From assembly GCA_000752215.1 (NCBI GenBank), contig CCFG01000011.1, positions 379,109 to 443,108 on the forward strand: DNA of 64,000 bases. The letters run 5' to 3'. Of the stretch, positions 9,920 to 46,869 are shown in pieces; the stretch's first letter is position 1, and every line of letters starts with the position of its first letter. A program made the translations under genes and the position numbers. Under the pieces are notes generated by a model. That model ran no database searches. It was not told where the DNA came from and saw only the letters and a program-made list of their open reading frames with translations. The DNA comes from a bacterium MS4. GTDB taxonomy: Bacteria; Bacillota; Clostridia; Oscillospirales; Acutalibacteraceae.

Positions 9920-9950
9920 AAGAGCATCCGCATTTGCGGGTGCTCTTTTT
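9920..9950 (+). terminator. Terminator of tRNA-Ser
   Basis: AAGAGCATCCGC and GCGGGTGCTCTT form a stem with a short TT-containing loop, ending in a T run at 9946-9950. Confidence 0.85.
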
Positions 9951-9975
9951 CATGAATTAAGATAAAAATACATCT

Positions 9976-10079
9976 TACAGTAATTCCATTTCAGTTTACG
10001 AAAAAAAACGCGTTCCTCCCCCCGCCTTCGGCGGGGGGAGGAACGCAACCTTGTTGCAGAATCAGCTGGAAATGCTGTA
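9976..10079 (+). repeat. Nested palindromic repeat, copy 1 (MITE-like)
   Basis: 104-bp intergenic unit. Imperfect terminal inverted repeats (TACAGTAATTCCATTTCAG at the left, CTGGAAATGCTGTA at the right) begin and end with TA. They enclose a perfect 17-bp hairpin (arms GCGTTCCTCCCCCCGCC and its complement, 3-base loop TTC) and the asymmetric conserved string CCTTGTTGCAGAATCA. It lies between the tRNA-Ser terminator and an acetyltransferase gene. Further copies are at 19350, 50887 and 53892. Confidence 0.85.
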
Positions 10080-10109
10080 GCAGTTTAACGGAAAGGACGC
10101 GGAAATGTA

Positions 10110-12089: not shown

Positions 12090-12266
12090 CTTCCCGCTCT
12101 CCTTAAATGAATTGGTTCACTCCGGTAACGGCGTAACTCACCCGATCTCCGTTTCACAGAAGTTCATCCTATTATTATATGAACAGGCTGAGGCAATTGA
12201 TATTTTCAAAAGAGAATTTTTATTCCAAGCAAAACTTACAATGACAATTTACGGGGGAATCCAATC

Positions 12267-13040: not shown

Positions 13041-13054
13041 GAATCATATAGGAT

Positions 13055-13093
13055 GAAAAAAGCCCCGGACCTCCGCAAAAACGGTCCGGGGCT
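13055..13093 (-). terminator. Terminator of larE, possibly bidirectional
   Basis: AGCCCCGGACC (13061-13071) pairs with GGTCCGGGGCT (13083-13093). Read on the minus strand it is followed by TTTTTT. It lies between convergent genes. Confidence 0.8.
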
Positions 13094-13124
13094 CTGCTAT
13101 GCAAAAAAACGGGGAATGGCTCAT

Positions 13125-13979: not shown

Positions 13980-14169
13980 ACTGATTTAATCCTATCAATT
14001 CCTATCAGATTAGTATTCATTTTATCTTAAATCCTTCGGGTTGTCAACCGGAAATGCTCTGCAAAAGGCGGCAGCCGGAACTGCGTTTCGGTAAAAGCTC
14101 CTATTTGTTATACATAAATCCTCCCGAATTTCAATAAAATAATAAAGTTTTCAGAAGGGCCTTAAAAAG

Positions 14170-14198
14170 TTGATGAACAGGCCGACATTTGTTATAAT
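14170..14198 (+). promoter_or_regulatory. Sigma-A promoter of ppx-ppk-pfk
   Basis: TTGATG (14170-14175), a 17-base spacer and perfect TATAAT (14193-14198), 37 bases upstream of the ppx start. Confidence 0.7.
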
Positions 14199-14234
14199 CG
14201 ACTTATAAAAACGAAGCATTGGTGGTGTCGCGTT

Positions 14235-15797: not shown

Positions 15798-15815
15798 AAA
15801 GGCTGTGTGTTGATC

Positions 15816-17930
15816 ATGAACGATATCATCGAAAAAATAAAAATCCCCTACATCAACCGTGAACTGAGCTGGATGGACTTTAACGGCCGGGTGCTGGAAG
15901 AGGCTTTTGAACGGGAAAACCCGATTATGGAACGCATCCGTTTTCTGGCGATTACCGCTTCCAATCTGGATGAATTCTTTATGGTACGCGTAGCCGGCGT
16001 GAAAGAACAGGTAAACTCGGATTATCGGGGCGAGGACCCTTCCGGCCTGAAGCCGAAACAGCTTTTGCCCCTGCTTTCCCAAAAAATCCATGCCTTCACG
16101 GAAAAACAGTATTCTTGTTTGTACCGCTCCATTATGCCGGCAATGAGAAAAAGCGATATCAGCTTTATCCTTCCTGAGGAAATGAGCCCCGATCAGCTGC
16201 GTTTTATTTCCGATTACTTTGATAAAGTGCTCTTCCCCGTGCTGACGCCGCTTGCAGTGGACACAAGCCGCCCTTTCCCCCTGCTTGCAAATAAAAGCCT
16301 GAATATTGCGGTACGGCTCAAGGGTGAGGAGGATTCCTATTTCGCCGTCGTACAGGTACCATCGATTCTGTCCCGGTTTCTGGAAGTTCCCTCCACCCGC
16401 GGCAAAACCTATGTCCTTCTGGAAAATGTCATCATGTATAAGCTGGAAGAGCTGTTCGAGCTCAGCGATATTCAGTCCGCCTGCCCGTTCCGCATGACCC
16501 GCAATTCGGATCTGGACATTGACGAGGAGTCGGAGGACCTGCTGATCGAAATACAGAAATCCATTAAGAAGCGCAAACGCGGCAAGCCCGTGCGTCTGGA
16601 GCTGATACAGAAATGCGACGTTGAGACGCGGGAATTTCTGATTGATATGCTCGACGTCAGCGAGGATGAAATATATGAACTGCCCGGCCCGCTTGATCTG
16701 ACCTTTTTCTCAAAATTCGCCTCCATTCCGGAATTTAAAAACCTGTGCTTTCAGCCGATCGAGCCGGTCTATCCCCCCGCCGATTTCTGGGGCTACGACG
16801 ATATTTTTGAAGCCATCCGTGAAAAGGACAGGATGGTTCACCATCCATATGAAAGCTTTGACATCGTGGTTGATTTCGTCCGCAGGGCGGCGGAAGACAA
16901 AAATGTGCTGGCAATCAAACAGACGCTTTATCGCGTCAGCGGACATTCCCCGATTGTGGCGGCGCTGATTACCGCGGCGGAAAACGGCAAACAGGTCACC
17001 GTACTGGTGGAACTGAAAGCGCGCTTTGACGAAGAAAACAACATTCTGTGGGCAAAAAAGCTGGAGGAAGCCGGGTGCCATGTCATCTACGGTCTGGCCG
17101 GGCTAAAGACCCACTGCAAAATCTTGCTGGTCGTCCGCCGCGATGAGGACGGCATTCGCCGCTACCTTCATATGGGAACGGGAAATTACAACGATTCGAC
17201 CGCGAAAATTTACACCGATATCGGCGTCTTTACCTGCAAGGAGCCTTACGGAACAGACGCTTCTTCCCTGTTTAACGTGCTGACCGGGTACTCCCGCCCG
17301 CCGGAATACAACCGGTTCGTGGTTGCGCCGCACGGAATGAGAAGCTTTTTCCGGCGGATGATCGAAAAAGAGATTGAAAACTCCCGTCAGGGCCTGCCCT
17401 GCGGAATCACGGCAAAAGTGAATTCCCTTGTCGACCCCGATATTATTGAGCTGCTGTACAAAGCCTCCCAGGCAAACGTTCCGGTACGCCTGCTGGTGCG
17501 CGGTATCTGCTGCCTGATTCCCGGGCTGCCGGGAACCAGCGAAAATATTACGGTCTATAGCATCGTCGGCCAGCTTCTGGAGCACAGCCGCATTTTCCGC
17601 TTTGAAAACGGGGGCAGCCCCAAAATCTATATGGGAAGCGCGGACTGGATGCAGCGCAACCTCGACCGGCGTGTGGAGCTTATATTTCCGATTGAGGAAG
17701 AAGACCTGCGGCAGCGGGCGTTCGCGATATTGGACCTGATGCTGAGCGACAATATCAATGCCAGGATCATGCAATCCGACACGGTGTACGCTCATATTGA
17801 TAAACGCGGAAAGGCCCCCTGCAATTGCCAGATTGAATTTTCCCGTCTGGCGCAGGCGGCGGTAAACAAATATATAGAACAGGACGGCAATAAGCCATTC
17901 CGCCCAATTTACAGTGCGGAATTCAGGTAA
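15816..17930 (+). CDS. ppk1: Polyphosphate kinase 1
   Basis: Reversibly polymerises the gamma-phosphate of ATP into polyphosphate. About 704 residues, typical of PPK1. The N-terminal domain has INRELSWMDFNGRVLEEA and SNLDEFFMVRVAG. The catalytic C-terminal domains have the phosphorylated histidine in RRYLHMGTGNYND and a second conserved histidine in LLEHSRIFRFENGG. Basic ATP-binding segments include IKQTLYRVSGHSP. ATG at 15816 (MNDIIEKIK) is chosen; GTG at 15807 and TTG at 15810 are in frame and slightly closer to the AAGG site, so the start is uncertain by three codons. It is the middle gene of ppx-ppk-pfk. Confidence 0.95.
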   Translation: MNDIIEKIKIPYINRELSWMDFNGRVLEEAFERENPIMERIRFLAITASNLDEFFMVRVAGVKEQVNSDYRGEDPSGLKPKQLLPLLSQKIHAFTEKQYSCLYRSIMPAMRKSDISFILPEEMSPDQLRFISDYFDKVLFPVLTPLAVDTSRPFPLLANKSLNIAVRLKGEEDSYFAVVQVPSILSRFLEVPSTRGKTYVLLENVIMYKLEELFELSDIQSACPFRMTRNSDLDIDEESEDLLIEIQKSIKKRKRGKPVRLELIQKCDVETREFLIDMLDVSEDEIYELPGPLDLTFFSKFASIPEFKNLCFQPIEPVYPPADFWGYDDIFEAIREKDRMVHHPYESFDIVVDFVRRAAEDKNVLAIKQTLYRVSGHSPIVAALITAAENGKQVTVLVELKARFDEENNILWAKKLEEAGCHVIYGLAGLKTHCKILLVVRRDEDGIRRYLHMGTGNYNDSTAKIYTDIGVFTCKEPYGTDASSLFNVLTGYSRPPEYNRFVVAPHGMRSFFRRMIEKEIENSRQGLPCGITAKVNSLVDPDIIELLYKASQANVPVRLLVRGICCLIPGLPGTSENITVYSIVGQLLEHSRIFRFENGGSPKIYMGSADWMQRNLDRRVELIFPIEEEDLRQRAFAILDLMLSDNINARIMQSDTVYAHIDKRGKAPCNCQIEFSRLAQAAVNKYIEQDGNKPFRPIYSAEFR

Positions 17931-35424: not shown

Positions 35425-35500
35425 GGGGCATTAGCTCAGCTGGGAGAGCGCCACACTGGCAGTGTGGAGGTCAGCGGTTCGATCCCGCTATGCTCCACCA
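35425..35500 (+). tRNA. tRNA-Ala (anticodon GGC), integration target
   Basis: 76-base cloverleaf with encoded CCA. Acceptor GGGGCAT/ATGCTCC, anticodon stem CCACA/TGTGG around CTGGCAG (anticodon GGC), T-arm GGTTCGATCCC. Its last ten bases plus one form the direct repeat that bounds the element to the right, so insertion at this 3' end left the tRNA intact. Confidence 0.96.
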
Positions 35501-35501
35501 A
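35491..35501 (+). repeat. attL core of the integrative element
   Basis: TGCTCCACCAA, 11 bp, covering the last ten bases of tRNA-Ala and one base beyond. It is identical to the copy at 46809-46819. An inverted arm AATCCGAACC lies 8 bases to its right at 35510-35519. Confidence 0.85.
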
Positions 35502-35509
35502 ATCAAGAT

Positions 35510-35548
35510 AATCCGAACCTTTTTCTAATCGGGAATGGGTTCGGATTT
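35510..35548 (+). terminator. Element-borne terminator behind tRNA-Ala
   Basis: AATCCGAACC (35510-35519) pairs with GGTTCGGATT (35538-35547) around an 18-base T-rich loop, followed by TTATCATTT. It presumably replaces the original tRNA terminator moved to 46.83 kb. The left arm doubles as the attP arm. Confidence 0.6.
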
Positions 35549-35574
35549 ATCATTTATATGGATGAAGTAGTATA

Positions 35575-35612
35575 AGAAAAGCGGCGGCGGTATGGGCTAC
35601 ATACTGCCGCCG
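35575..35612 (-). terminator. Terminator of the HNH-Vsr-Dcm transcript
   Basis: The minus strand pairs CGGCGGCAGTATG with CATACCGCCGCCG (one wobble), loop TAGCC, followed by CTTTTCTTA. It lies about 90 bases after the HNH gene stop. Confidence 0.65.
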
Positions 35613-35700
35613 TTACTTTAATCAAAGGAATTATAGGACATCGAAAAATTTGGTAATATTAATAGTTTGCAGGTAGTCGACAAGCAGATTAGATATGGAT

Positions 35701-36675
35701 TTACTCGTCGCCACGATGTTCGACATCATGGCATACATTGCATAGAGTGGTGAGGTTTTCCACTGTGTTATCTCCGCCATCTTTGTGATGCTTTTTATGA
35801 TGTAGTTCAAGCATCTTTCTGGGGTCTTCTTTTGATAACATACTTCTATTCCAACCACATTTAGTACAACTAAAATGATCCCGCTCCAAAACGGCCACTC
35901 GAACAACATCTGGAATTTTTCTATCGTGCTCATGTGCTTGTCTATCTTCTTCTAAAACATAAACACCAACAGGTAAATCTTCTCGGCCGGTATTTTTAGT
36001 AACTATGGGCCAACCATCTTCCGTTCGTAATTCTCTTACACGTCGTGCCCATTCCTTTGCTTCCCCGGCTAAATAGCTTAATTCTTCACCTGTAACTTGC
36101 ACTCCTACATTTTTTCTTAGGTACTCAATGATTTTATCCTTTGTTGCAATCTTCTTTTTACGAATCTCATTGAGTAAGTTCCAGCGAAGGGCAGCGTCTC
36201 TATCTTGTTCGGTACGCATAAGTATATATTGATTAGGCCTGATTTTAGAAGGATCAATCCCTAAAGCTTGAAACGAGGCAGCATCATCTGGATTTTGAGC
36301 CATTTCGCTGACTGTATAACCCGAATAGATCCACCAACCAAATTGAACACGCAATTCTCTAAGGCGGCGAGCCCATTCATCAATACCTGCTACGACCATA
36401 AGCTCATCTCCATCAATTACCATTTGAGGGTATTGAAGTAGGTAGGAGATAATTCGCTCACGGGCGGAAGCCGCTTCGCTCTTTGGAATAAGTGAGCTTC
36501 CTAAATCACGTAGCGTATGAAACGCTGGAACCAACGCAACAACCTTAGGGCGAAGATCACTTTTCTTCAATTCCTCAGAAAAGTTTGTGAGCAACTCAAC
36601 TAGTGACTGCCGAAGTTCTTCTGGAACATCTTTGGGCTGAGAACGACGTGCCAAATCGGCACCTTCTTTCATCAT
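35701..36675 (-). CDS. HNH endonuclease (probable restriction nuclease of the Dcm/Vsr cassette)
   Basis: 324 residues. The C-terminal HNH domain has two zinc-knuckle pairs and the catalytic core: CTKCGWN near residue 266, LELHHKKHHKDGG near 290, ENLTTLCNVCHDVEH near 305. The middle carries two related helical repeats, each ending EWARRLRELR or EWARRVRELR followed by a GW-containing strand (about residues 105-118 and 212-225), which may be DNA-binding modules. Position directly after vsr and dcm suggests it is the restriction partner of the methylase. ATG at 36675 begins 3 bases after the vsr stop; no strong ribosome site is seen. Confidence 0.82.
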   Translation of the reverse strand: MMKEGADLARRSQPKDVPEELRQSLVELLTNFSEELKKSDLRPKVVALVPAFHTLRDLGSSLIPKSEAASARERIISYLLQYPQMVIDGDELMVVAGIDEWARRLRELRVQFGWWIYSGYTVSEMAQNPDDAASFQALGIDPSKIRPNQYILMRTEQDRDAALRWNLLNEIRKKKIATKDKIIEYLRKNVGVQVTGEELSYLAGEAKEWARRVRELRTEDGWPIVTKNTGREDLPVGVYVLEEDRQAHEHDRKIPDVVRVAVLERDHFSCTKCGWNRSMLSKEDPRKMLELHHKKHHKDGGDNTVENLTTLCNVCHDVEHRGDE

Positions 36676-36678
36676 TTT

Positions 36679-37131
36679 TTAATCGACATGTTTAATACTG
36701 TTTTGTGTAGCTGCATTCTCTCTAAACAAAAATTCTTTTATGCGTTGCAACAAAGCATCTTGATTTTGCTTTTTAAGCTCGCATTCCCAAACGACTAACA
36801 CCCGCCATCCTAATTCTTTAAGTTTCGCTTCATCAATTCTGTCACGTTCTATATTCTTGTCGATCTTTTTATTCCAAAACTCTGTGTTTGTTTGCGGACG
36901 TTGTCCTCGCTTACAATTGTGACCATGCCAAAAGCAACCATTTACAAAAATTACAGCCTTATATTTCGGCAGCACAATATCAGGTGTTCCTGGAAGGTTT
37001 TTACGAGAAAGACTAAATCTAAACCCATTCCTATGCAGAATACTTCTTAACTTAACTTCAGGCGCAGTATTCTTATTTTTAATATGAGACATTATTTCTT
37101 TTCTTTTTTGAGAATCAAATATATCAGCCAT
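36679..37131 (-). CDS. vsr: Very short patch repair endonuclease Vsr
   Basis: Nicks DNA 5' of T in T:G mismatches that arise by deamination of 5-methylcytosine. 150 residues, the usual length. Visible motifs: MSHIKNKNTAPEVKLRSILHRNGFRF, the catalytic Asp in GTPDIVLPKYKAVIFV, and the zinc/metal cluster GCFWHGHNC. A WRVLVVWECEL segment follows. It overlaps the dcm end by 8 bases. A C5-cytosine methylase as partner fits the Vsr role exactly. Confidence 0.96.
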   Translation of the reverse strand: MADIFDSQKRKEIMSHIKNKNTAPEVKLRSILHRNGFRFSLSRKNLPGTPDIVLPKYKAVIFVNGCFWHGHNCKRGQRPQTNTEFWNKKIDKNIERDRIDEAKLKELGWRVLVVWECELKKQNQDALLQRIKEFLFRENAATQNSIKHVD

Positions 37132-38245
37132 CTTTTTTTATTTCCAGAAGTCTTTCTATACACGTTGCAACTTGAGCGGCCAATAATGGAGGAACAGCAT
37201 TCCCAATCTGTTTGGCAATTTCTATTTTACTGCCAAGAAAACAGAAAGAATCGGGAAACGATTGCAACCGCGCAGCTTCACGATGTGTAATTGGTCTATG
37301 TTCTTTTGGATGCAAATAGCGCCCCTTTTCCGGCTTAAAAAATTCTGTACGAATAGTGACGGATGGTTTATCCCACCATAATCTTCCAAATAAATCAGTG
37401 CCGCCGGATTTTTTATTAATCCAACAATTCGGTGTTATTTCCGGTGCAATTCGCTGTAAATCAAAGCGATTCATTCCTTCGTTGGGTATTGACATATATC
37501 GTCTAAGGCTAACTTCTGTTGGCTTACGCCCAAAATGCAAATCAAGTGGTGGTTCAATATCTTTTCTAATTTCTGTTCCTACCGGTTTCGGCAAATCCCC
37601 AATAGCGTCTCGAACTGTTCGCCACGGTTGGGGGTTTTCAATATAGCCATCTGTTGGATTCAGTGTGTTAGGGGAAATTACAGCAGGATTATAATGTGTT
37701 TTCAGTGGTGGGAAGAAGTTATTGGGATCTGCAAATTTACACCCAATTATAAAAGCTCTGTATCTCACTTGCGGTACACCATAATCGGCAGCGCATAGTT
37801 TAGCTTTAGCTAATTTGGAAAAACCCAATTTTTTTGCATACCGAGCTATGTCTTTGTATTCTTCTGAACCCAGCAATTGTGGGACATTTTCCATTACAAA
37901 AACATCCGCTCCAGAGCGCTTGACAACATCCATAAAGGGAAGCCAAAGGCTTCTCCTTGAATCTCCGTTACGATTTCTATTCAATAAACTAAAACCTTGG
38001 CACGGTGGCCCGCCAATTACAACATCAGCAGTTGGGATAGTCGTATCTGGAGCATTTAACAGATCAACTATATCGCCAACAATACAATGATTTCCATAAT
38101 TAGCATTGTATGTATCCGCGGCATATTGATTAAAATCGTTTGCCCAAACTGGCTCAAAATCATGTTTCAATAAGTGGCTAAAACCGAGAGACAGCCCCCC
38201 CGCACCACAGAATAAATCTATAAGTTTATATTTAGTATTTGACAT
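37124..38245 (-). CDS. dcm: DNA (cytosine-5)-methyltransferase
   Basis: Methylates cytosine C5 in a specific DNA site; the recognition sequence cannot be deduced. 373 residues with ordered motifs: I (LFCGAGGLSLGFS, residue 11), IV with the catalytic Cys (GGPPCQGFSLLNRNRNG), VI (VFVMENVPQLL), VIII (YRAFIIGCKF), and IX/X (REAARLQSFPDSF, QIGNAVPP). The target-recognition region lies at about 190-300. ATG at 38245 has AGGTGAA upstream. It heads the cassette dcm-vsr-HNH with its own promoter. Confidence 0.95.
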   Translation of the reverse strand: MSNTKYKLIDLFCGAGGLSLGFSHLLKHDFEPVWANDFNQYAADTYNANYGNHCIVGDIVDLLNAPDTTIPTADVVIGGPPCQGFSLLNRNRNGDSRRSLWLPFMDVVKRSGADVFVMENVPQLLGSEEYKDIARYAKKLGFSKLAKAKLCAADYGVPQVRYRAFIIGCKFADPNNFFPPLKTHYNPAVISPNTLNPTDGYIENPQPWRTVRDAIGDLPKPVGTEIRKDIEPPLDLHFGRKPTEVSLRRYMSIPNEGMNRFDLQRIAPEITPNCWINKKSGGTDLFGRLWWDKPSVTIRTEFFKPEKGRYLHPKEHRPITHREAARLQSFPDSFCFLGSKIEIAKQIGNAVPPLLAAQVATCIERLLEIKKDG

Positions 38246-38279
38246 ATTTCACCTAAACCAATTCGATAAATATATTTTG

Positions 38280-38308
38280 ATTATAGCATACGAAAGCAAT
38301 CCTGTCAC
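38280..38308 (-). promoter_or_regulatory. Promoter of dcm-vsr-HNH
   Basis: Minus-strand GTGACA (38303-38308), a 17-base spacer and perfect TATAAT (38280-38285), 35 bases upstream of the dcm ATG. Confidence 0.65.
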
Positions 38309-38383
38309 TTGATTTTGCTTCCGAGTATTAATTATGGAGCTTAAAAAAATCCACCTATCAGGAGATGTTTAACTAAACCTTTT

Positions 38384-38428
38384 TCAAAAAACAAGAACAG
38401 GCTGACGTCAAATCAACCTGTTCTTGTC
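38384..38428 (-). terminator. Terminator of the Rep/FtsK operon
   Basis: Minus-strand ACAAGAACAGG and CCTGTTCTTGT flank a 15-base loop and are followed by TTTTTTG. It separates the replication module from the dcm promoter. Confidence 0.8.
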
Positions 38429-38467
38429 GTTATGATCACTCGAGGGTTATCCGTAGTTTTGCAAGAG

Positions 38468-38647
38468 TTAGGGTTTCGTTCCTTTCTCCTGATTTTCTTT
38501 TTCCTGCCGCCTTTGCCATTCGGCAAATTCCCGCTTGCCGTCCTCGCTCTCAAAATAAGCCTGTATGTCCGGGAGCAGGCAGCGGGCTAGAGATTCTATC
38601 ACATGATATGGAATGTCAGTTTGACGGTTCTTTTTCCGCCGTTTCAA
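38468..38647 (-). CDS. Small protein after rep (unknown function)
   Basis: 59 residues read from a TTG at 38647 (MKRRKKNRQTDIPYHVIES...), chosen because AGGAGGGAGG lies 8-9 bases upstream. The longer frame back to 38758 only shadows the rep gene. A basic start is followed by an amphipathic segment (ARCLLPDIQAYFESEDGKRE) and a Gln/Glu/Lys tail. It overlaps the end of rep by about 32 bases and appears translationally coupled. I do not recognise the family; small proteins in this place are common in related elements. Confidence 0.6.
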   Translation of the reverse strand: MKRRKKNRQTDIPYHVIESLARCLLPDIQAYFESEDGKREFAEWQRRQEKENQEKGTKP

Positions 38648-39572
38648 TAGGGCCTCCCTCCTTTGAGGCAATGTTATACTGCCGATAGTTGATGATATTT
38701 TTAACCTCCCCGGCCTCGTCGGTAATTGCGATAGTCTTTTCGTAGGTGAGCGGTGCACCGCCTATGGCCTCCTGTGCTTCGGCCTCTGTGACCTGCCATA
38801 CCTCTGGCCTTTTTATGCCTCGGCTGGCTCGGTACAGGTTGAATCCGGGAGGATACAGGCGTAGCCGCGCTCCTTTGATGATTGCTTTCTTTTGGCGCTC
38901 GCCTTGCTTGTCCGTGATGCTGGCCTCAGATATGCGACCCTTTATGGCTCCCGCGCTTATGGCTTCGGTCAGTTCCATATCCCCAAGGTAGGCGGTCAGG
39001 TAAAGGCCGGGATTCTCAATCCCTTTCAAACTCTTTGTTTTGGTAAAGCCGTTGCCCCAAATCCGCGCCATGTCTTGATTTGGGATAAATGGAGATTTTT
39101 CAGGGAATAGAAACAGGCCGTGCAAATGCCATGCGCCCCTTGCTTGTGGTTCGGCGGCGGTGATATATTCGGCGGACGGGTGTCCCTGCTTGTCCAAGTG
39201 ATAGCGAAAGCGTTGCCAGAATCGCCGAAAGTCCTCATAAAGCCGTTTTGCGTCGGTCATATTCTCGGCATAGGTAAGCGTTATCCATAGGGCCGTTTCC
39301 GGGTCTGTTAGATTGGCATCGATGAGATCGCGGAGCTTGCGGAGGGATTGCGCCACATTCGCCTTGCTTTCCCATCTGGTCGCGGCGTGAGCAGACTCCC
39401 TGACTTCCCCTGTGCGCTTATCTACATACAAATCTGCGTTTAGCTTTTCAATCACACCGCCAGTAGGAACAGACCGCATATATCGGACTTCCACGACATT
39501 CCCGCACCGCTTCACCGTTACTGTCGCATCCGGCGTGTCCGGCCTTACGTCCGGGATTCTGTCAATGTTCAT
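38616..39572 (-). CDS. HUH-type replication initiator/relaxase-like protein
   Basis: 318 residues. It has the metal-binding HUH motif in WHLHGLFLFPEKS (about residue 160), preceded by LWITLTYAENMTDAKRLYEDFRRFW, and a tyrosine segment NPGLYLTAYLGDME near 205 as the likely nicking tyrosine region. This pattern fits rolling-circle Rep proteins of plasmids, phages and integrative elements. It probably nicks the element origin for replication or transfer of the circular form. ATG at 39572 is the first possible start after an in-frame stop, but no clear ribosome site is seen. Downstream of the FtsK-like gene on the same strand. Confidence 0.78.
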   Translation of the reverse strand: MNIDRIPDVRPDTPDATVTVKRCGNVVEVRYMRSVPTGGVIEKLNADLYVDKRTGEVRESAHAATRWESKANVAQSLRKLRDLIDANLTDPETALWITLTYAENMTDAKRLYEDFRRFWQRFRYHLDKQGHPSAEYITAAEPQARGAWHLHGLFLFPEKSPFIPNQDMARIWGNGFTKTKSLKGIENPGLYLTAYLGDMELTEAISAGAIKGRISEASITDKQGERQKKAIIKGARLRLYPPGFNLYRASRGIKRPEVWQVTEAEAQEAIGGAPLTYEKTIAITDEAGEVKNIINYRQYNIASKEGGPIETAEKEPSN

Positions 39573-39653
39573 AAAATATCAAGTTAATACCGCCTGCGGC
39601 GGTGGACGGTTCGGGCGGCTCTTGCTGCGCTGCACCGCCCGTCCCGCCCAGTG

Positions 39654-40745
39654 TCAGCGGCACATCGCTTTCCGAATGGTATCATTGAGAACTTCAAAGT
39701 CCCTAATCGGCGCAATTTTGACACGCTCTATGCCTTTTCCATCAATAAGCATATACCCCTCGCCCAAGCCATTGCGCTCGTTCATTTTGTCCTTGTAGTC
39801 TGAAAAAAGCATTTGCCGTTGCTCCTTTGACAAATCCCCAAGCGCCAGAATAGCCCGAAACTGGTCACGGGCACCAGCTTTGAAATGCTCAACATCGGCA
39901 CGTTGTACGCCAATCAGTATCCGCATATTTAGACTGCGCCCCATAAAGAGCATATTGCCAACCATTGTCTTTAGTTCATCAGCAGCCTTTTTGTCCTGTG
40001 CAGATATAAGCGCTCCATATTCATCTATTAGCAAAACCCGGATTTGCTTGTTACGCTCTTCGTCATTGGCTGCAAGCCGTTCTGAAAACTCTTGATAGAA
40101 CGCCCTTATGCCGTTGGGTACATCTTCATAGCCGTAAAAATTGGACGTATCCTCAAATTGAGCAAAGCTGCTTTTCTTGTAGTCGCAAATTGTGATACTA
40201 ACAGTTGGAATGTACTTTGCATAAATGCCGAGTAGTACCGAAAGGGCATAGCTCTTGCCGCTGCCGGTTTTTCCTACGCACAGCAGATTGGGCAGCTTAC
40301 TGAGTTCTTTTGCAAAAAACTCATTATAAGGTGAAATGATAGTGGGTCTATCGTGCTTGCGTGGCGTAACATATAGCCTTGTGCACGTGCTTTTTTTGCA
40401 TAGTTCTATACGGTCAATGCGAAAATTCAAGGCTGTTTCGAGTTGCTCCGTTTTATCCTCAAAAGCGGAAACGGTCACTCCTTTATTGTCAATTCCCCAA
40501 ATTAGACCGTAGAGCTTTGTTTTATCGCCACGAACAGAACGCAAACGAGGATACTCCCCCGAACAATTCTTTATACCGTTGCGCTTGCAAGCTTGCAGAA
40601 ATCGCTTTGCCTTAATGGGTGGGGTTCGGATAAACTGAACAATGCAAGTTAGCACTGTTAAAAAGAGTGTGAAAAGCACCATGTTTCGCGTAAACTCTCC
40701 CAACGGTTCGGGAATAGCCGATAAAAAGTCATTTATGGTATTCAT
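39654..40745 (-). CDS. FtsK/SpoIIIE-like DNA translocase of the element
   Basis: 363 residues. An N-terminal membrane segment (about 18-37, LFTLFLTVLTCIVQFI) is followed by an ATPase domain with Walker A LLCVGKTGSGKSYALSVLLG and Walker B RVLLIDEYGALISAQ. The sensor region MFMGRSLNMRILIGVQRADVEHF is typical of the FtsK/TcpA family of coupling or transfer ATPases. It is far shorter than chromosomal FtsK, as in Tn916-type and actinomycete integrative elements. It likely moves element DNA or couples Rep-bound DNA to transfer. ATG at 40745 has GGAAAGGAAAG upstream. Confidence 0.82.
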   Translation of the reverse strand: MNTINDFLSAIPEPLGEFTRNMVLFTLFLTVLTCIVQFIRTPPIKAKRFLQACKRNGIKNCSGEYPRLRSVRGDKTKLYGLIWGIDNKGVTVSAFEDKTEQLETALNFRIDRIELCKKSTCTRLYVTPRKHDRPTIISPYNEFFAKELSKLPNLLCVGKTGSGKSYALSVLLGIYAKYIPTVSITICDYKKSSFAQFEDTSNFYGYEDVPNGIRAFYQEFSERLAANDEERNKQIRVLLIDEYGALISAQDKKAADELKTMVGNMLFMGRSLNMRILIGVQRADVEHFKAGARDQFRAILALGDLSKEQRQMLFSDYKDKMNERNGLGEGYMLIDGKGIERVKIAPIRDFEVLNDTIRKAMCR

Positions 40746-40807
40746 TGTGGTCTTTCCTTTCCAAAGGAAATGGCAAGGGGCGTTTTACCCCCACGCCATA
40801 CCAAATC

Positions 40808-41173
40808 TTATTTGCTATTTGTGTTGACAATCTCAACTCCGTCTGCCGTTCCGCTCATTTGCATTTTTCCGTTAATTGTATATATGGAAATTTGCGGATT
40901 TTTGAAACGTACAATCAAAGGCTTCATAGCGGAGCACAATGACTTTATTTTCTCATCGTCTACGTCCGGCAAAGGGTCAGTGCTTCCTTCTATCCTAATA
41001 GTGAGGGGAGCAAACCCCTGTCCCTGTAATGCGACACCGATGTTCGTATGAGTACGAATGTCACTTGTGGGCTTGCCATCTGCAAACGGCAGTACAGCAC
41101 GTTTCTCCGTCAGAAAGGCAATGTCTTGATTGTCATTTATCGCACCTAGCCCCACTTTAATTTTGTTTGCCAT
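40808..41173 (-). CDS. Hypothetical protein of the element
   Basis: 121 residues, starting at the ATG at 41173 (MANKIKVGLGAIND), with AAGGAG upstream. No membrane segment. It has mixed beta-type composition with an acidic middle (DPLPDVDDEKIKSL). Position just upstream of the FtsK-like gene resembles the small accessory genes before tcpA/ftsK in other integrative elements. Family not recognised. A 60-base gap with short inverted repeats (40755-40802) separates it from ftsK. Confidence 0.6.
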   Translation of the reverse strand: MANKIKVGLGAINDNQDIAFLTEKRAVLPFADGKPTSDIRTHTNIGVALQGQGFAPLTIRIEGSTDPLPDVDDEKIKSLCSAMKPLIVRFKNPQISIYTINGKMQMSGTADGVEIVNTNSK

Positions 41174-41231
41174 AATAAAATCTCCTTTTTGTGTACCCCT
41201 GTGCCAGTAAACACAGGGGTATATCATTCCG

Positions 41232-41555
41232 TTACTTGCTCTTTTGCTTGCTGTTCTCTTGACTTTGGCACTGCCAAATGACATCAAAAATTTTCTCAAT
41301 AGCCGCCTTGAATGTATCAGCCTCGTAACCCTCCCCCGAACAATCAAAGCTAAAATCACTTGAAACCACCACTACACCAATGTGATTGGTAAGTAGAAAT
41401 TTTAAGAAATCGCGTGGGGTCATGCGGTCGCTTGTGCTACAAATGAAATTTGCTTGCGAGACTGCGTGCGGATAATTCTTGGAAAAGTTGCAGTGTATCA
41501 TCTCATATAAATTAGGTGTTGGGTCTTTACCTACAATGCCGATATTTCTAACCAT
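41232..41555 (-). CDS. Hypothetical protein of the element
   Basis: 107 residues from ATG at 41555 (MVRNIGIVGKDPTPN), with AGGATAACAAG upstream. An alpha/beta-looking protein with a hydrophobic strand IGVVVVSSDFSFDC and a Gln/Lys-rich tail. No known motif is recognised. It appears to be the first gene of the minus-strand group running through the FtsK-like and Rep genes. Confidence 0.55.
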   Translation of the reverse strand: MVRNIGIVGKDPTPNLYEMIHCNFSKNYPHAVSQANFICSTSDRMTPRDFLKFLLTNHIGVVVVSSDFSFDCSGEGYEADTFKAAIEKIFDVIWQCQSQENSKQKSK

Positions 41556-41714
41556 CTTGTTATCCTGCTTGACCTTACTGCCACTTAGCTACGGCGGCAG
41601 TAAGGTGTCTACTACTTTTATTTGTGCTGACCAGCTACAACATGAGATTAACATATCGCCTAAAAACCTTCATTCATTGATTCGATAACTTTGATAATTT
41701 CTTGCAGCTTTTTC

Positions 41715-41743
41715 TTGATTTTTCGTTGATAGGACGATAAAAT
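41715..41743 (+). promoter_or_regulatory. Promoter of the 203-residue XRE regulator
   Basis: TTGATT (41715-41720), a 17-base spacer and TAAAAT (41738-41743), 27 bases ahead of the ATG. It is divergent from the 41555 gene. Confidence 0.5.
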
Positions 41744-41769
41744 CTTGATAAGGGAAAGCGAGGCGAAAA

Positions 41770-42381
41770 ATGAAAAAGGCGGCAAAAGATCTAACTCGGA
41801 TTGCAATGGTTTTAGAGGATTTGAGAAAACAGGGAATAAATCAAGCGACGTTTGCAAAAGCAATTGGGTATCCAGAATCTAATGTTAGTGACATAAAGAA
41901 TGGTAAGCGCCAGCCTCCGATGGACTTTCTGTTACAGGTGAATGAAGTCTATCATTATAGTATTGATTACATGCTTGATAAGTCTGATGATATGAAAGAC
42001 GAAGCAAGCGAAATTCTGTCGGCTTTAAGTAAACTTTCTGATGGATACACGACAACGCCTAAAACCTATACAGATAGTGACGGCAATATAATCGAAGGAC
42101 AATTTTTGCTGCTAAATATAAATGAGCATTTATATGATTTTTTGGTCGCATATGACCATGCAACTCGATTGCAGCAAGAGCAAGGCTTGAAATCCTATAA
42201 CGAGGAAATTCAGAAAATCAAGCAAGAATATATGAAACATAAAGGCACAGGCGAAAACCGGAAATGCATTCTTATTCCAAGCAATAATATGATAGAGATA
42301 GTCGGCTCTAAAAAGAGGGAGCGACAAACAATGGACGAAATATTGGATTTAGGGACAGAGCTAAGTGATTATCTCGATTAG
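41770..42381 (+). CDS. XRE-family helix-turn-helix regulator with C-terminal extension
   Basis: 203 residues. The N-terminal HTH (about 10-65) reads LRKQGINQATFAKAIGYPES and NVSDIKNGKRQPPMDFLLQV. The remaining 130 residues are predicted mostly helical, with a mid-region hydrophobic patch LYDFLVAYDHATRLQQEQ and a basic stretch NRKCILIPSNNMIEIVG. It is divergent from the minus-strand Rep/FtsK group, so it could be the repressor of replication and transfer genes. ATG at 41770 has GCGAGGCG upstream. Confidence 0.78.
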   Translation: MKKAAKDLTRIAMVLEDLRKQGINQATFAKAIGYPESNVSDIKNGKRQPPMDFLLQVNEVYHYSIDYMLDKSDDMKDEASEILSALSKLSDGYTTTPKTYTDSDGNIIEGQFLLLNINEHLYDFLVAYDHATRLQQEQGLKSYNEEIQKIKQEYMKHKGTGENRKCILIPSNNMIEIVGSKKRERQTMDEILDLGTELSDYLD

Positions 42382-42387
42382 GCAAAT

Positions 42388-42437
42388 AAAAAGACAGCCA
42401 TTACAGTACATTATGTGTACCACGGTGGCTGCCTTTT
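42388..42437 (+). terminator. Terminator of the XRE gene
   Basis: AGACAGCCA/TGGCTGCCT outer arms and GTACA/TGTAC inner arms, with A-run before and TTTT after. It could act in both directions. Confidence 0.6.
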
Positions 42438-42456
42438 AGCTTATTAACTTGTCCCA

Positions 42457-42505
42457 ATAAAAAACAACACCCATGATACTTCTAATCAGTATCTTAGGTG
42501 TTGTT
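42457..42505 (-). terminator. Terminator of the small XRE gene
   Basis: Minus-strand AACAACACC and GGTGTTGTT arms (with TACT/AGTA inside), followed by TTTTTATTG. The stem overlaps the last codons of the 42494 gene. Confidence 0.7.
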
Positions 42506-42724
42506 TTCCTTTTTAGGGTCTGGCAGAATTTCTATAATGTCGGTAACTTGACAACTAAATATTTGGCAAAGGGCGTCAAGTGTATTGGTTGATACAGATT
42601 CATCATTCATCAACCTTTGAATAGTTTTGCTATCCAAGTTATATATTCCGCATTTGGTTCTCAGAAAATAAGTGCTGATTTTTTTATATTCCATCAGCTT
42701 TCTAAGCGGCTCGAAAGAAACCAC
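42494..42724 (-). CDS. Small XRE-type repressor-like protein
   Basis: 76 residues read from a GTG at 42724 with GGGGAGGTG 6 bases upstream (start MVSFEPLRKLMEYKKIS). A lambda-repressor/Cro-like HTH: LRTKCGIYNLDSKTIQRLMN and ESVSTNTLDALCQIFSCQVTDII. The longer frame to 42955 runs into the neighbouring gene and is not used. The single-domain form resembles antitoxin- or Cro-like regulators. It faces away from the membrane protein gene, with the 32-bp palindrome between them. Confidence 0.75.
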   Translation of the reverse strand: MVSFEPLRKLMEYKKISTYFLRTKCGIYNLDSKTIQRLMNDESVSTNTLDALCQIFSCQVTDIIEILPDPKKENNT

Positions 42725-42776
42725 TGACGCACCTCCCCTCTTGACTTTATATTCATTATCACATATAATGACGATG

Positions 42777-42808
42777 AACCTATATGAGGAATATTCCTCA
42801 TATAGGTT
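42777..42808. promoter_or_regulatory. 32-bp perfect palindrome, likely operator
   Basis: AACCTATATGAGGAAT followed immediately by its exact reverse complement. It sits between the divergent starts at 42724 (minus) and 42833 (plus), 25 bases before the latter. It is a good candidate for binding a dimeric XRE regulator. Confidence 0.75.
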
Positions 42809-42832
42809 GGGATGATTGGGAGAGGGGCTAAC

Positions 42833-43285
42833 ATGAAAAAAGTAATATGGATTATTGGCACCGGAGCTGCGTGTGTTGTTTACTCTTTTCTTGTCGGGGT
42901 CATAGCAATTGCGGGACAAATCATTACAAGTATAAGAACACACTCCGAAATACAATCAGTCAATCAAGATTTCTTGAATCCCATAATGGCAGTGGGATGG
43001 GCTGTTTTGATTATTCTATCCATTTGGATGCATAAACGGTGGAACGCCAAATGCCACGCCTGTAAACGCTGGAACGCTTTGAAGCTGTTAAAAACAGAAG
43101 TTCTAAAGCAAGAGAAAATTTCTGTTCTTGTGGAACTAAAACAAAGAAACTTGAATCGAGAAGTGACTGGCACTCAAGACCAATACATTCCCGGCAAACG
43201 AAAAACATATCAGGATACATACCAATGCAAATACTGTGGCAATCTGGAAATTTGTACACATACCGAGGATAGTACAAGTATATAA
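42833..43285 (+). CDS. Membrane protein with C-terminal zinc-ribbon-like cysteines
   Basis: 150 residues. Two membrane segments (about 4-30 and 52-69) are followed by a cytosolic part with CHACKRW near 77 and a C-terminal CKYCGNLEICTHTE. The four or more cysteines suggest metal binding. ATG at 42833 has GAGGGGC upstream. Transcribed away from the small XRE gene and toward the RCC1 gene. No known family recognised; a signalling or immunity-type membrane partner is only a guess. Confidence 0.6.
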   Translation: MKKVIWIIGTGAACVVYSFLVGVIAIAGQIITSIRTHSEIQSVNQDFLNPIMAVGWAVLIILSIWMHKRWNAKCHACKRWNALKLLKTEVLKQEKISVLVELKQRNLNREVTGTQDQYIPGKRKTYQDTYQCKYCGNLEICTHTEDSTSI

Positions 43286-43392
43286 AGCTGCGGATTGATT
43301 GACTTTATAATCCATTCTCTTTACAATAAAAGCAACGATAACAATGAAATATATACCAAATATTCAAAATATAAATGCGGAGGTATTAACTG

Positions 43393-44664
43393 ATGAAAAA
43401 GCGTATTTTATCCCTCTCGCTGGCGCTGATAATGTGTTTGGGGCTTGCTGTTCCAGCTTCGGCGCATGATATGAGTAAGGCAGGACAGGCGAATATTGTC
43501 AGTGCCAGCGGTAATCATACTGGATTGATAGATAAAAATGGTTCCTTATGGATGTGGGGATTATACAAACCAGTTGGCAATGGTCTTTGGAAACCCGCCC
43601 CAGTCCCAGCTAAAGTGTTGGATAATGTCGTTTCCGTCAGCAGCGGCAGCAATCACACCGCCGCAATTAAGACAGACGGTTCCTTGTGGATGTGGGGTTC
43701 CAATAACAGCGGCGAGTTAGGCAATGGCGGTATTGGGAATATTCACGACGGCGAGGGCGGTATTTATCAGGATGTGCCTGTCAAGGTGATGGATAAAGTG
43801 GCTTCTGTGAGCTGCGGAGACGGGTATACCGCCGCCATTAAAACGGACGGTTCCCTGTGGATGTGGGGAGCAAACAATGATATGCAGTTAGGGAATAATG
43901 GTGTTGGAAATGTTCAAGACGAAATTTATGGGGCATATCAGACGCTTCCTGTGAAAGTGCTGGATAATATGGTTGCCGTCAGCTGCGGAAGCAGTCATGC
44001 TGCCGCCATCAAAACAGATGGTTCTATGTGGTGGTGGGGATATCTGGGTGTTATGTCGGACAATAATAGTGTATCCGCGACTTATTATGCTGAGCCCGTC
44101 AAGGTTATGGACAATGTAGCCGCTGTCAGTTGCGGAGGAAGTCATACTGCTGCGCTCAAGACAGATGGCTCCTTATGGATGTCTGGAGGAGATAACGGAT
44201 GGGGGCAATTGGGCGATAGTTCTTCCACCGGGGGAAGATCACCCGCAGATCCGATAAAAGTCATGGATGGTGTCGCTTTTGTCAGTTGTGGGGGAAGTCA
44301 TACCGCCGCTGTAAAAACAGATGCTTCCCTGTGGATATGGGGTAGTAACGAGTTTGGCGAACTGGGTTCTTCCACCGGTAATGCAAAAGTGCCTTACTAT
44401 AATACTGTATCCGCGAGTTATGACAGTTTTCCTGTGCAGACCGTTCCTGTCAAATTGATGGACGGCGTGTCTGCAATTAGTTGCGGTAATTCCTATACCA
44501 TGATTGTCAAAACAGATGGTTCTGTTTGGGCGTGTGGGAGTAACGAGGTAGGCAAGTTGGGTAATAACGGTAAGGGAAATAGTAGTCGGGATATTGGTGG
44601 CTACGTGATTACAATGCAGACCACCCCGATGAAAATTCCCACTCTGACAGCCAAGTTGAAATAA
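43393..44664 (+). CDS. Secreted RCC1-repeat beta-propeller protein
   Basis: 423 residues with a clear signal peptide (MKKRILSLSLALIMCLGLAV, cleavage after ASA near residue 24). The rest is seven RCC1-like repeats, each with a core of SCGxxHTAAIKTDGSLWMWG type: about residues 35, 90, 137, 191, 239, 290 and 360. Seven repeats match a seven-bladed propeller. A protein-protein or surface-binding role is inferred; no enzymatic motif is seen. ATG at 43393 follows GGAGG. It is cargo of the integrative element, between XRE regulators. Confidence 0.88.
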   Translation: MKKRILSLSLALIMCLGLAVPASAHDMSKAGQANIVSASGNHTGLIDKNGSLWMWGLYKPVGNGLWKPAPVPAKVLDNVVSVSSGSNHTAAIKTDGSLWMWGSNNSGELGNGGIGNIHDGEGGIYQDVPVKVMDKVASVSCGDGYTAAIKTDGSLWMWGANNDMQLGNNGVGNVQDEIYGAYQTLPVKVLDNMVAVSCGSSHAAAIKTDGSMWWWGYLGVMSDNNSVSATYYAEPVKVMDNVAAVSCGGSHTAALKTDGSLWMSGGDNGWGQLGDSSSTGGRSPADPIKVMDGVAFVSCGGSHTAAVKTDASLWIWGSNEFGELGSSTGNAKVPYYNTVSASYDSFPVQTVPVKLMDGVSAISCGNSYTMIVKTDGSVWACGSNEVGKLGNNGKGNSSRDIGGYVITMQTTPMKIPTLTAKLK

Positions 44665-44701
44665 GTTTTCCAAAAACATAAAACCCCATTATATGAAATC
44701 G

Positions 44702-44743
44702 GCAGGGCAGTTAAGGGATTGGCTTTAATTGCCCTGTCTTTTT
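44702..44743 (+). terminator. Terminator of the RCC1 gene
   Basis: GCAGGGCAGTTAA and TTAATTGCCCTGT form a long stem with a 10-base loop, followed by CTTTTT. Confidence 0.75.
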
Positions 44744-44757
44744 ATGCAATTATTGTG

Positions 44758-44786
44758 TTGACATTTTAACTCAAATATCGTATTAT
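44758..44786 (+). promoter_or_regulatory. Sigma-A promoter of the third XRE gene
   Basis: Perfect TTGACA (44758-44763), a 17-base spacer and TATTAT (44781-44786), 27 bases before the ATG. Confidence 0.75.
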
Positions 44787-44812
44787 ATCTTTATAAGAAA
44801 GGGGAGTTGACT

Positions 44813-45181
44813 ATGCAAGAGATATCGCAACGGTTAAAAGGCTTGCGGGAGAGTGTGAGCCTATCCCAAGCAAAGATAGCGGCACTGATGGGCGCAACAC
44901 AAGCCAGCGTGAACAGATATGAGAACGGACAGTCTTCCCCGCCGTTAAAGATTTTGCTTTGGTATGCGGATTTCTTTGATGTTTCTATGGATTATATTTT
45001 CGCTCGAACAGAGCAGCCAGAGGGCAAGTTATACGAGCATAAGCCGAAAGTGATTGAAGCTATCACGCAGGATAGCAAGGAATTACGGCAGTTTGTAGAT
45101 ATGTGTTTTGACCCCTCGTCACCTGTCAGCGAAAAGCTACGGGAGGTTTTAACGCAGATGTTGCAGGAGCAGGGCAAATAG
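44813..45181 (+). CDS. XRE-family transcriptional regulator
   Basis: 122 residues. The N-terminal HTH (LKGLRESVSLSQAKIAALMG, TQASVNRYENGQSSPPLKIL) is followed by the DFFDVSMDYIFARTE tail found in many Clostridial phage-like repressors and a helical C-terminus. ATG at 44813 with AAGGGGAG upstream is preferred over the TTG at 44807. It lies directly before the recombinase gene and may control excision. Confidence 0.85.
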   Translation: MQEISQRLKGLRESVSLSQAKIAALMGATQASVNRYENGQSSPPLKILLWYADFFDVSMDYIFARTEQPEGKLYEHKPKVIEAITQDSKELRQFVDMCFDPSSPVSEKLREVLTQMLQEQGK

Positions 45182-45363
45182 GCGGGTGCGTTTCCCCTTT
45201 CGTATGATATTCAAAAATTCCCGCCAGTCAAGGTTAAAATGAACTGATTTACAATCAGACCTTGACAGGAGGAAATTTTTGAATCTGCGGCAAATAAGGG
45301 GAACGCCCCCTGTGTGGCGGGTTTTGAAAAACCGCCCATAAAGTTACGAAAGGTTGTGAATAT

Positions 45364-46869
45364 ATGAAAGCCGTTATTTACGCTCGTTATTCCTCTGATA
45401 GCCAGAGGGAAGAAAGTATAGAGGGACAGTTACGGGAATGTAAGGAGTACGCCGAACGAAACGGCATCACGATTTTAAGCACCTATATTGACCGTGCTTT
45501 GTCAGCAAAAACGGACAATCGCCCCGACTTCCAACGGATGATTAAGGACAGCGCCAAGGGGCTTTTTGATATTGCCCTTGTCTGGAAGTTAGACCGTTTC
45601 GCGCGAAATCGCTATGATAGCGCGCATTATAAATCCATCTTGAAGAAAAATGGCGTAAAAGTTGTATCAGCCAAAGAAGCAATCGCAGAGGATAGCACAG
45701 GAATTTTACTTGAAAGTCTGTTAGAGGGGTATGCGGAGTTCTATTCCGTTGACCTATCCGAAAAGATACACCGTGGGCAAAAAGACAACGCATTAAAAGG
45801 GCTGAACAATGGCGGTGGGATTCCGTTAGGGTATCTGCTGGGGAAAAACCAGCGCTTAGAAATTGACCCGCTTACTGCACCTGTGGTAATTGAAATCTTC
45901 ACTCGCTATTCCGAGGGCGAAACCGTCCGAGCGATTGTAGAATCGTTGAACAAGCGCGGTTTGCAGACCAAAAGGAACAAACCGTATAGCATGAACAGCT
46001 TCAATGCCATTCTGAAAAATCGCAAGTACATAGGCGAATACAAATATCAGGATGTTGTCATTCCGGGCGGCGTTCCTGCCATTGTCCCGGTAGAATTGTT
46101 TGACCGGGTACAGGCGCGAATGGAGAAAAATAAACGAGCTCCGGCTATGAGTAAGGCCGAAGATGATTATTTACTCACAACTAAGTTGTTTTGCGGTAAG
46201 TGTGGTCGGCTGATGGTTGGTGAAAGCGGTACTAGTCGTACTGGGAAGAAGCATTATTATTACAAATGTGGAAGTGCCAAACGCAAAACAGGTTGTAAGA
46301 AAAAGGCTGTGAAAAAAGACTGGATAGAAAATCTAGTGGTTAGCCGTACCATGCGAATGATTTTTGATGATTCCACCCTTGCAGTTATTTCAGATATGGT
46401 GCTAGATGTTCAAGAACAGGAAAATACATCATTACCAATTTTGAAAGAGCAGTTGTCGCAGACGGAACAAGGCATACAGAATATGTTAAATGCCATCCAG
46501 CAAGGGATTTTTACTCCCGCCACCAAGCAGCGGTTAGAGGAACTAGAAGCAAGCAAGGAGCGGTTGACCGTCAGCATTTTACAAGAAGAATTACAAAAGC
46601 CACGGTTGACCGAGGAACAAGTTTTATTCTGGTTGCGTCGTTTCAGAACGATTGACACCACCAAACAGGAACAACGGCAACGACTGATAGACAGCTTTGT
46701 GAATGCTGTGTATGTATACAACGATAAAATCATCCTAATTTTTAACTATAAGGACGGTACAGAAACCATCACCCTAGACGATATAAATGGTTCGGATTTG
46801 GTAGCAAGTGCTCCACCAAGTAAAAAATCCAGGAGCCATCAGGTTCCTGGATCTTTTGTTTTACCTTGA
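45364..46869 (+). CDS. Large serine recombinase (integrase) of the element
   Basis: Catalyses site-specific integration and excision. 501 residues in the integrated form. The N-terminal resolvase domain has the nucleophile Ser10 in VIYARYSSDSQ, plus VWKLDRFARNRYDSAHYK. The recombinase domain spans about 155-270, the zinc ribbon about 277-325 (LFCGKCGRLMVG, YYYKCGSAKRKTGCKKK), and a coiled coil follows to about 430. The C-terminus crosses attR at 46809, so the last 16 residues (SKKSRSHQVPGSFVLP) are encoded by flanking host DNA. In the circular form the tail would differ. ATG at 45364 has AAAGG upstream. Confidence 0.93.
   Translation: MKAVIYARYSSDSQREESIEGQLRECKEYAERNGITILSTYIDRALSAKTDNRPDFQRMIKDSAKGLFDIALVWKLDRFARNRYDSAHYKSILKKNGVKVVSAKEAIAEDSTGILLESLLEGYAEFYSVDLSEKIHRGQKDNALKGLNNGGGIPLGYLLGKNQRLEIDPLTAPVVIEIFTRYSEGETVRAIVESLNKRGLQTKRNKPYSMNSFNAILKNRKYIGEYKYQDVVIPGGVPAIVPVELFDRVQARMEKNKRAPAMSKAEDDYLLTTKLFCGKCGRLMVGESGTSRTGKKHYYYKCGSAKRKTGCKKKAVKKDWIENLVVSRTMRMIFDDSTLAVISDMVLDVQEQENTSLPILKEQLSQTEQGIQNMLNAIQQGIFTPATKQRLEELEASKERLTVSILQEELQKPRLTEEQVLFWLRRFRTIDTTKQEQRQRLIDSFVNAVYVYNDKIILIFNYKDGTETITLDDINGSDLVASAPPSKKSRSHQVPGSFVLP
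46809..46819 (+). repeat. attR core of the integrative element
   Basis: TGCTCCACCAA, identical to the tRNA-Ala 3' end at 35491-35501 and lying within the recombinase frame. An inverted arm GGTTCGGATT lies 10 bases to its left at 46789-46798. Confidence 0.85.
46822..46860 (+). terminator. Displaced original terminator of tRNA-Ala
   Basis: ATCCAGGA (46827-46834) pairs with TCCTGGAT (46845-46852), followed by CTTTTGTTTT. It starts 8 bases after the CCA-like end of attR, the usual place for a tRNA terminator. Confidence 0.75.

Follow-up and report, generated by a model that had tools for sequence, protein, structure and literature searches.

Attachment sites inside the integrase gene itself have been described for phage Mx8 and for SSV, in which integration gives int a new 3' end (PMC6070905 and PMC4383910, in the parts cited). 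In Mx8, the closest precedent, the new 3' end is reported to change integrase specificity (PMC6070905). The 2015 database paper on Islander names these cases, reserves the word 'integrase' for the tyrosine family and, in the section cited, describes serine integrases as not known to use tRNA ends (PMC4383910); the cited part of a 2022 review likewise states that mycobacteriophage serine integrases do not use them (PMC9262239). Rutherford et al. (2013; PMC3783163, section on half-sites) located the zinc-domain motif at positions 16–24 in attP half-sites and found it shifted 5 bp towards the centre in attB. Here, we describe an integrated element of 11,318 bp (35501–46818) in a 64-kb stretch of contig CCFG01000011.1 from bacterium MS4 (hereafter, the window), adjoining the 3' end of a tRNA-Ala gene. 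We put at roughly 88% the probability that it is moved by a large serine recombinase targeting the 3' half of tRNA genes, with attP inside int and a conserved tail of the enzyme replaced upon integration. This reading draws on the boundaries, one empty site, the attP layout, a conserved coding tail, the tRNA targets of relatives and uninterrupted genes in viral contigs, all of them features of sequence.

An earlier note on the window had read an integrative element at the tRNA 3' end, and this reading is supported. The target gene, tRNA-Ala (GGC; 35425–35500, forward strand; ARAGORN), provides the left half of attL with its 3' end. An 11-bp sequence, TGCTCCACCAA, occurs in the window exactly twice, on the forward strand at 35491–35501 and 46809–46819 and nowhere on the other strand, and is the only 11-mer from the last 31 bases of the tRNA that recurs on the same strand. 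Both copies lie, to the base, where the earlier note had placed them, at the tRNA 3' end and at the end of the integrase gene; the probable 2-bp crossover falls at 35495–35496 (tRNA positions 71–72) in the left copy and at 46813–46814 in the right. The repeat is longer than the portion shared in relatives; in most of these, the agreement between attL and attR is limited to ACCA and roughly the 2 bp preceding it ([C/G][C/G]ACCA). The G + C content of the element is 43.3% (left flank: 51.5%, right flank: 48.0%).

The note had proposed looking for the unoccupied site in related genomes, and the same-genus genome G002 has it: TetR, tRNA-Ala, a similar terminator, LysR and a major facilitator superfamily (MFS) gene follow in the same order, with nothing inserted between the tRNA and the terminator and LysR (identities to the window: TetR 99%, LysR 93%, the 77-base tRNA-Ala query 100%, MFS 98% over the 95 residues contained in the stretch). 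This is the full empty site in one instance, from one genome. The hairpin directly after tRNA-Ala in G002 resembles the one at 46827–46857 (forward strand), probably the displaced tRNA-Ala terminator, which in the window lies just 3' of the integrase gene. The tRNA-Ala gene was found at ≥95% identity in nine of the ten other genus genomes searched (in G008, over 60 of the 77 bases), and G006 (64% complete) gave only weak matches to the query. No left end follows the tRNA in five of the nine (G002, G004, G005, G007, and G009); G003 and G008 have one whose tail is open and related, and G001 and G010 have a broken one. No relative of the window integrase was found downstream in these last four genomes (E-value 1e-4; ~18.7 kb in three, 4.3 kb in G010). 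Left-end relics thus stand behind tRNA-Ala in four other genus genomes (L147, L155, L152, and L153), two of them with open tails (KQDYPNF...). G008 also contains a decayed 7.6-kb relative of the element (L207, reverse strand, 9911–17590) beside conjugative-looking genes; it has a GCACCA core and, by eye, only the integrase 3' end is visible.

Joining the two ends of the element reproduces the 49-bp site proposed earlier, GGTTCGGATT - 10 - core - 8 - AATCCGAACC, whose arms are exact inverted complements. Numbered 1–49, this attP has its left arm at 1–10, ACCA at 27–30 and its right arm at 40–49 (layout: arm 10 - 15 - 5 - 9 - arm 10), and the rough chance of such an arm pair within 5–20 bp of a given core is 2.4e-4. 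The right arm lies at 35510–35519, and the left arm at 46789–46798, inside the integrase coding sequence, where together with the next bases it codes for G-S-D-L. A third copy of GGTTCGGATT, at 35538–35547 within the left end, is the hairpin partner of 35510–35519 (all three on the forward strand); relatives have it too, although there it formed part of the left-end search. This third copy, the position of attP inside int, the likeness of the arm to a tRNA T-arm and the large tRNA-targeting clade go beyond the earlier note. The arm hairpin was also considered as a genome-wide repeat; its exact form occurs once each in G000, G007, and G008 among 11 genus genomes, and therefore it is not a repeat family. 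The G007 copy resembles a plain terminator, and the G008 copy is the end of another, decayed element.

Relatives, tRNA targets and recognition

Relatives were taken from named genomes (best 80 of 300), the host's kin (78 of 98 genomes matched; best 30 matches used), viral contigs (15, then the best 80 of 437), phage records (838 with a match, 6 used) and plasmids (364 with a match, 1 used). The named-genome, host-kin, first 15 viral, phage, and plasmid sets make up 146 loci. Some loci stand under two identifiers (L123/L230, L113/L231, L114/L233, window/L112, and others); counts given as 'distinct' merge identical sequences, whereas the 146 loci and the 42 left ends below do not.

The arms, which the note had suggested comparing, and their spacing are common to these relatives. 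Right ends were chosen by likeness to the arm, with ≤5 mismatches of 10 for the locus count and ≤3 for the codon analysis. An arm and CCA at a fixed distance stand at the end of the integrase gene in 125 of 146 loci at the wider setting (no mismatch in 43, one in 47, two in 17, three in 11, and four or five in 7, which may be chance) and in 107 at ≤2 mismatches. The left arm is also conserved as DNA: its Ser codon is TCG in 81 of 81 genes, compared to 12% elsewhere in the same genes (the out-of-frame L213 was dropped from this codon comparison; the retained L018 has an internal stop). Two kinds of viral relatives depart from the pattern: in L220 the arms differ (GAGTTCGTAT / ATACGAACTC) and flank a CTCCACCA core within the integrase frame, and L266 and L273 have a CTCCACT-type core without the full CCA, perhaps reflecting hosts whose tRNA genes lack CCA.

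The 146 loci and the window yielded 42 left-end sites, including a few uninterrupted attP sites. ARAGORN called a tRNA beside the left end in 20 of the 25 loci with both ends (21 of 26 with the window), namely Leu (8), Pro (3), Val (3), Ala (3), Met (1), Tyr (1), and Ile (1), and the target in L004 is a transfer-messenger RNA (tmRNA; Rfam). The right ends of L029 (Tyr) and L227 (Ile) are mis-anchored; both loci were kept among the 25 pairs and dropped from the covariation count. A tree of 111 integrase rows, 97 of them different, shows targets grouping by clade, with five changes of the tRNA's amino acid among the 18 rows that have a called tRNA and 15 changes of the dinucleotide at attP positions 25–26. 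These sequence comparisons place the element in a clade of large serine recombinases using tRNA 3' ends. In L067, L069, L070, and L072, a second left end lies ~150–290 bases past the integrase, behind a stretch resembling a tRNA 3' end; these may be tandem elements or a tRNA mimic.

The T-arm of tRNA-Ala (GGTTCGATCC, 35476–35485, forward strand) provides a candidate arm-like motif of attB, set 5 bp closer to the core than its attP counterpart. Across 21 tRNAs, the best match of T-arm to arm comes at an offset of +5 (mean 6.19 of 10), in line with the published attB offset, and in the window GGTTCG begins at position 1 in attP and position 6 in attB. Across the 25 loci, attL equals attR at position 25 in 23 (12 G, 11 C; both misses are the mis-anchored loci), at position 26 in 24 (21 C, 3 G) and at position 24 in only 10. 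Agreement at 25 and 26 but not at 24 locates the crossover at 25 or immediately to its right, suggesting that positions 25–26 are the crossover bases; the arms are probably where the integrase makes contact.

The integrase gene, its tail and the free form

The integrase gene (45364–46869, forward strand) has its own codons up to 46818, followed by 16 host-encoded codons and a stop. The earlier note's large serine recombinase at the right end was borne out by the domains Resolvase, Recombinase, and zinc ribbon (PF00239, PF07508, and PF13408), in this order and above the cut-off, and by phrog_95 integrase. Sequence matches in the PDB include the TP901-1 and A118 integrases, and Bxb1 also matches by sequence or fold; template modelling scores (TM-scores) are only 0.2–0.4 over the whole chain and 0.79 for the TP901-1 catalytic domain. 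In its integrated form the gene ends ...SAPPSKKSRSHQVPGSFVLP, with the final 16 residues from host DNA. Read across the joined ends it continues as ...SAPPNQDNPNLFLIGNGFGFIIYMDEVV, through a detached 3' end of 24 codons, NQDNPNLFLIGNGFGFIIYMDEVV, plus a stop (35501–35575, forward strand), whose codons (35501–35572) lie beside the tRNA and are in frame with the gene only across this junction. In integrated relatives, the host extension is between 0 and 163 codons long (median 16, n = 95). Of 96 relatives, 65 have a terminator-like hairpin past the core, compared to one after shuffling, which fits a tRNA terminator moved behind the integrase. Both sets omit L007 and L011, which a loose rule called uninterrupted but which are interrupted by eye.

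Several properties of the left ends indicate, from their substitution patterns, that the tails evolve as protein. Of 40 distinct left ends, 39 keep frame 0 open over 20 codons or more, compared to 15 and 11 for the other two frames, and the hairpin spacer measures 18, 21 or 24 bases, a multiple of three, in 41 of 42 left ends (19 in the remaining one). Among 58 close pairs from 72 tails, the ratio of nonsynonymous to synonymous differences per site (pN/pS) is 0.37 in frame, compared to 1.14 and 1.32 when the frame is shifted. The differences number 155, 93, and 280 at first, second, and third codon positions. This comparison leaves out the NPN codons only, and its tails had been preselected as open over 21 codons. 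Close pairs were used because synonymous sites are near saturation in the 24 tails with an 18-base spacer, which outside the arms give a pN/pS of 0.58 (other frames: 0.74 and 1.37). All 24 of these tails have Gly at tail codon 11, using all four third bases, and the fixed NPN and third-arm codons are partly so by construction because the arms belonged to the left-end search. In the predicted structure of the uninterrupted relative L209 (mean predicted local distance difference test score (pLDDT) 77.8, predicted template modelling score (pTM) 0.40), the tail appears as a beta hairpin after an unstructured link.

Genes uninterrupted by integration were found in viral contigs, which are taken as phage genomes on the strength of the collection's label. 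In all, 72 viral contigs match the pattern TTCGGAT-N17-ACCA-N10-ATCCGAA, and none does when the spacing is one base longer. At 62 of the 72 sites, the frame through attP belongs to this integrase, with a tail of 16–32 codons; at 55, at least 300 codons are open upstream in the stretch and the stop comes 15–45 codons on. When distinct viral integrases were instead found by protein (78 in total), 34 had a CCA-anchored site at ≤3 arm mismatches, and in 27 of these the site was in frame. A scan for arm pairs at other total lengths was uninformative, as pairs are common at odd lengths, and gave way to the exact pattern and its control shifted by one base. Two further candidates for a free form were rejected. 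Plasmid OY725851.1 (L244) encodes an integrase with 53% identity, but a terminator-like hairpin rather than a tail comes after its core; the gene in G057 (L123, L230) is uninterrupted but was not counted because its neighbours look chromosomal.

Mechanism and competing explanations

In the mechanism we propose, the integrase would take the 3' half of tRNA genes as attB, with the T-arm GGTTCGA as the outer attB motif, and the crossover would lie at or next to tRNA positions 71–72; in attP, a similar motif stands at both ends, 5 bp further out. The left arm and core serve as integrase codons up to 46818, and the joined frame continues through attP into the 24 codons. Integration leaves the tRNA whole, places its terminator behind the integrase and swaps the conserved tail for host-encoded residues, and excision would restore the tail, with CACCA AATCAAGAT AATCCGAACC as the predicted joined junction. 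The free element would then make a tailed integrase that integrates, and the integrated element a tail-less one. Loss of the tail may alter integrase activity, for example by holding the integrated state; that the tail changes activity here we regard as a tentative proposal, at best an even bet. The wider proposition, that the clade carries a directionality switch in its own gene (the tail being present in the free form only) and that its enzyme recognises the universal T-arm, allowing nearly every tRNA or tmRNA gene to act as attB once the two crossover bases match, is conceivable but somewhat doubtful.

A number of observations weigh against this mechanism. No excised junction of the window element itself was seen, and the uninterrupted genes come from relatives only. 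Among the 25 two-ended loci, five have no ARAGORN tRNA (L004 has the tmRNA, L033 and L051 a T-arm by eye, L010 a 3' fragment and L016 none), and some left ends outside the two-ended pairs have no tRNA either. The next-best T-arm offset, -1, scores 5.0, and the +5 match counts approximately once because the T-arm is nearly identical in all tRNAs; the right half of attB has no motif, only A-richness (95 flanks), and the agreement at positions 25 and 26 amounts to a single independent change in the tree for each position. In the viral contigs, six of the 72 sites are read as lacking a tail because the frame stops inside the left half of attP, and five of these adjoin this integrase; the integrase of L344 is in another frame, none was found beside L346 and L378, and L357 has too little DNA. 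Of the 78 viral integrases found by protein, 44 had no CCA-anchored site and 7 had one out of frame, some of which end at the contig end or look integrated. The tail is also modelled with low confidence (pLDDT blocks of 42–57 after a link of 31–38).

The strongest competitor, which we consider a real possibility although not the favoured one, holds that attP sits in the int 3' end for compactness only and that the tail is a passenger, translated and mildly constrained, with no effect on activity. The six tail-less viral sites, the wide range of host extensions that integrated relatives accept and the fact that known domains stop earlier (Pfam matches reach residue 327 of 501, the match to PHROG residue 467 of 485) agree with it, whereas the low in-frame pN/pS, seen in frame 0 only, the Gly at tail codon 11 with its free third base and the 39 distinct left ends that keep an open tail do not. 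Another explanation would make the inverted arms a terminator or RNA hairpin of the left end and the attP palindrome a by-product. The arms at 35510–35519 and 35538–35547 can indeed pair, and the same arm sequence forms the ordinary-looking terminator of G007; however, the left arm lies 11.3 kb away inside int and is conserved across the clade at one spacing from the core, and a single extra base of spacing abolishes all viral matches, making this account very improbable. The element could also be an immobile relic that once integrated in the way described. The missing excised junction, the decayed left ends at the same tRNA in G001 and G010 and the open tails of G003 and G008, with no integrase relative in the stretch, point in that direction, but the integrase frame, both arms, the core and the tail frame of the window are all intact, and we hold loss of mobility to be unlikely. 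Integration into a tRNA 3' end by an integrase that exchanges its tail remains the reading we prefer.

Gene content, classification and known systems

Between its ends, the element appears to carry restriction-modification cargo beside the left end (35701–38245, reverse strand): an HNH endonuclease (35701–36675; Pfam, PADLOC), a Vsr-type endonuclease (36679–37131; TIGR00632, PADLOC Vsr) and a C5-cytosine DNA methyltransferase (37124–38245; domain and family profiles, PADLOC). A rolling-circle type replication initiator (38616–39572; PF23343, phrog_3419) and an FtsK/SpoIIIE-like ATPase (39654–40745; PF01580, phrog_1358), also on the reverse strand, raise the possibility of a replicating, mobilisable element. 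On the forward strand are a helix-turn-helix (HTH) regulator (41770–42381; domain profile), an RCC1-repeat cargo protein (43393–44664; profile matches) with, by eye, a signal-peptide-like start on this small mobile element, and an HTH repressor-like protein (44807–45181; profile matches).

Like other tRNA-borne elements, it leaves the tRNA whole, repeats a fragment of it at the far end and has an empty site in a relative. The attP size (49 bp) and inverted outer motifs are those of a serine integrase, with the 5-bp attB offset in the left half only. The recombinase is not a CcrA/B/C enzyme of staphylococcal cassette chromosome mec (SCCmec), as the best score, to CcrB, is 169 bits against an NCBIfam cut-off of 900, and no relaxase or type IV secretion families of an integrative and conjugative element were found among the 13 element proteins scanned.

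Among the literature matches listed, which cover few subscription papers, no description of tRNA-targeting serine integrases with attP inside their gene was found. The 2025 TIGER resource, in the part cited, gives sites and integrase types without cross-tabulating them, and therefore such elements may sit there undescribed. Re-use of the T-arm by the clade would explain how one integrase type reaches many tRNAs, would make attB sites available across bacterial genomes in general, and would open directionality control to testing in a protein from which integration removes a defined tail of 24 residues.

Compared to known systems, the window integrase resembles the A118/LI-type enzymes (PMC3783163) in its domain order and in its sequence and fold matches to 4kis; according to the cited section of that paper, these enzymes also have 25-bp attP half-sites with an outer motif that in attB lies 5 bp nearer the centre. 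Unlike them, it targets tRNA 3' ends, has attP inside int and bears an extra C-terminal tail of ~24 residues. The multi-targeting large serine recombinases of Durrant et al. (PMC10083194) likewise reach many target genes within a clade; however, 63% of their clade has DUF4368, which is not among the Pfam matches of the window integrase, and the word tRNA does not occur in the main text of that source as cited. Integration-dependent immunity in mycobacteriophages (BPs and others) shares an attP within a coding sequence, a changed C-terminus and an attB at a tRNA, but there, in the account cited, the repressor gene is the one that is split, and the integrase belongs to the tyrosine family (PMC9262239). 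In contrast to Mx8 and SSV, with which it shares the new int 3' end, the enzyme of the window is a serine recombinase, and the tail lost on integration is conserved across its clade.

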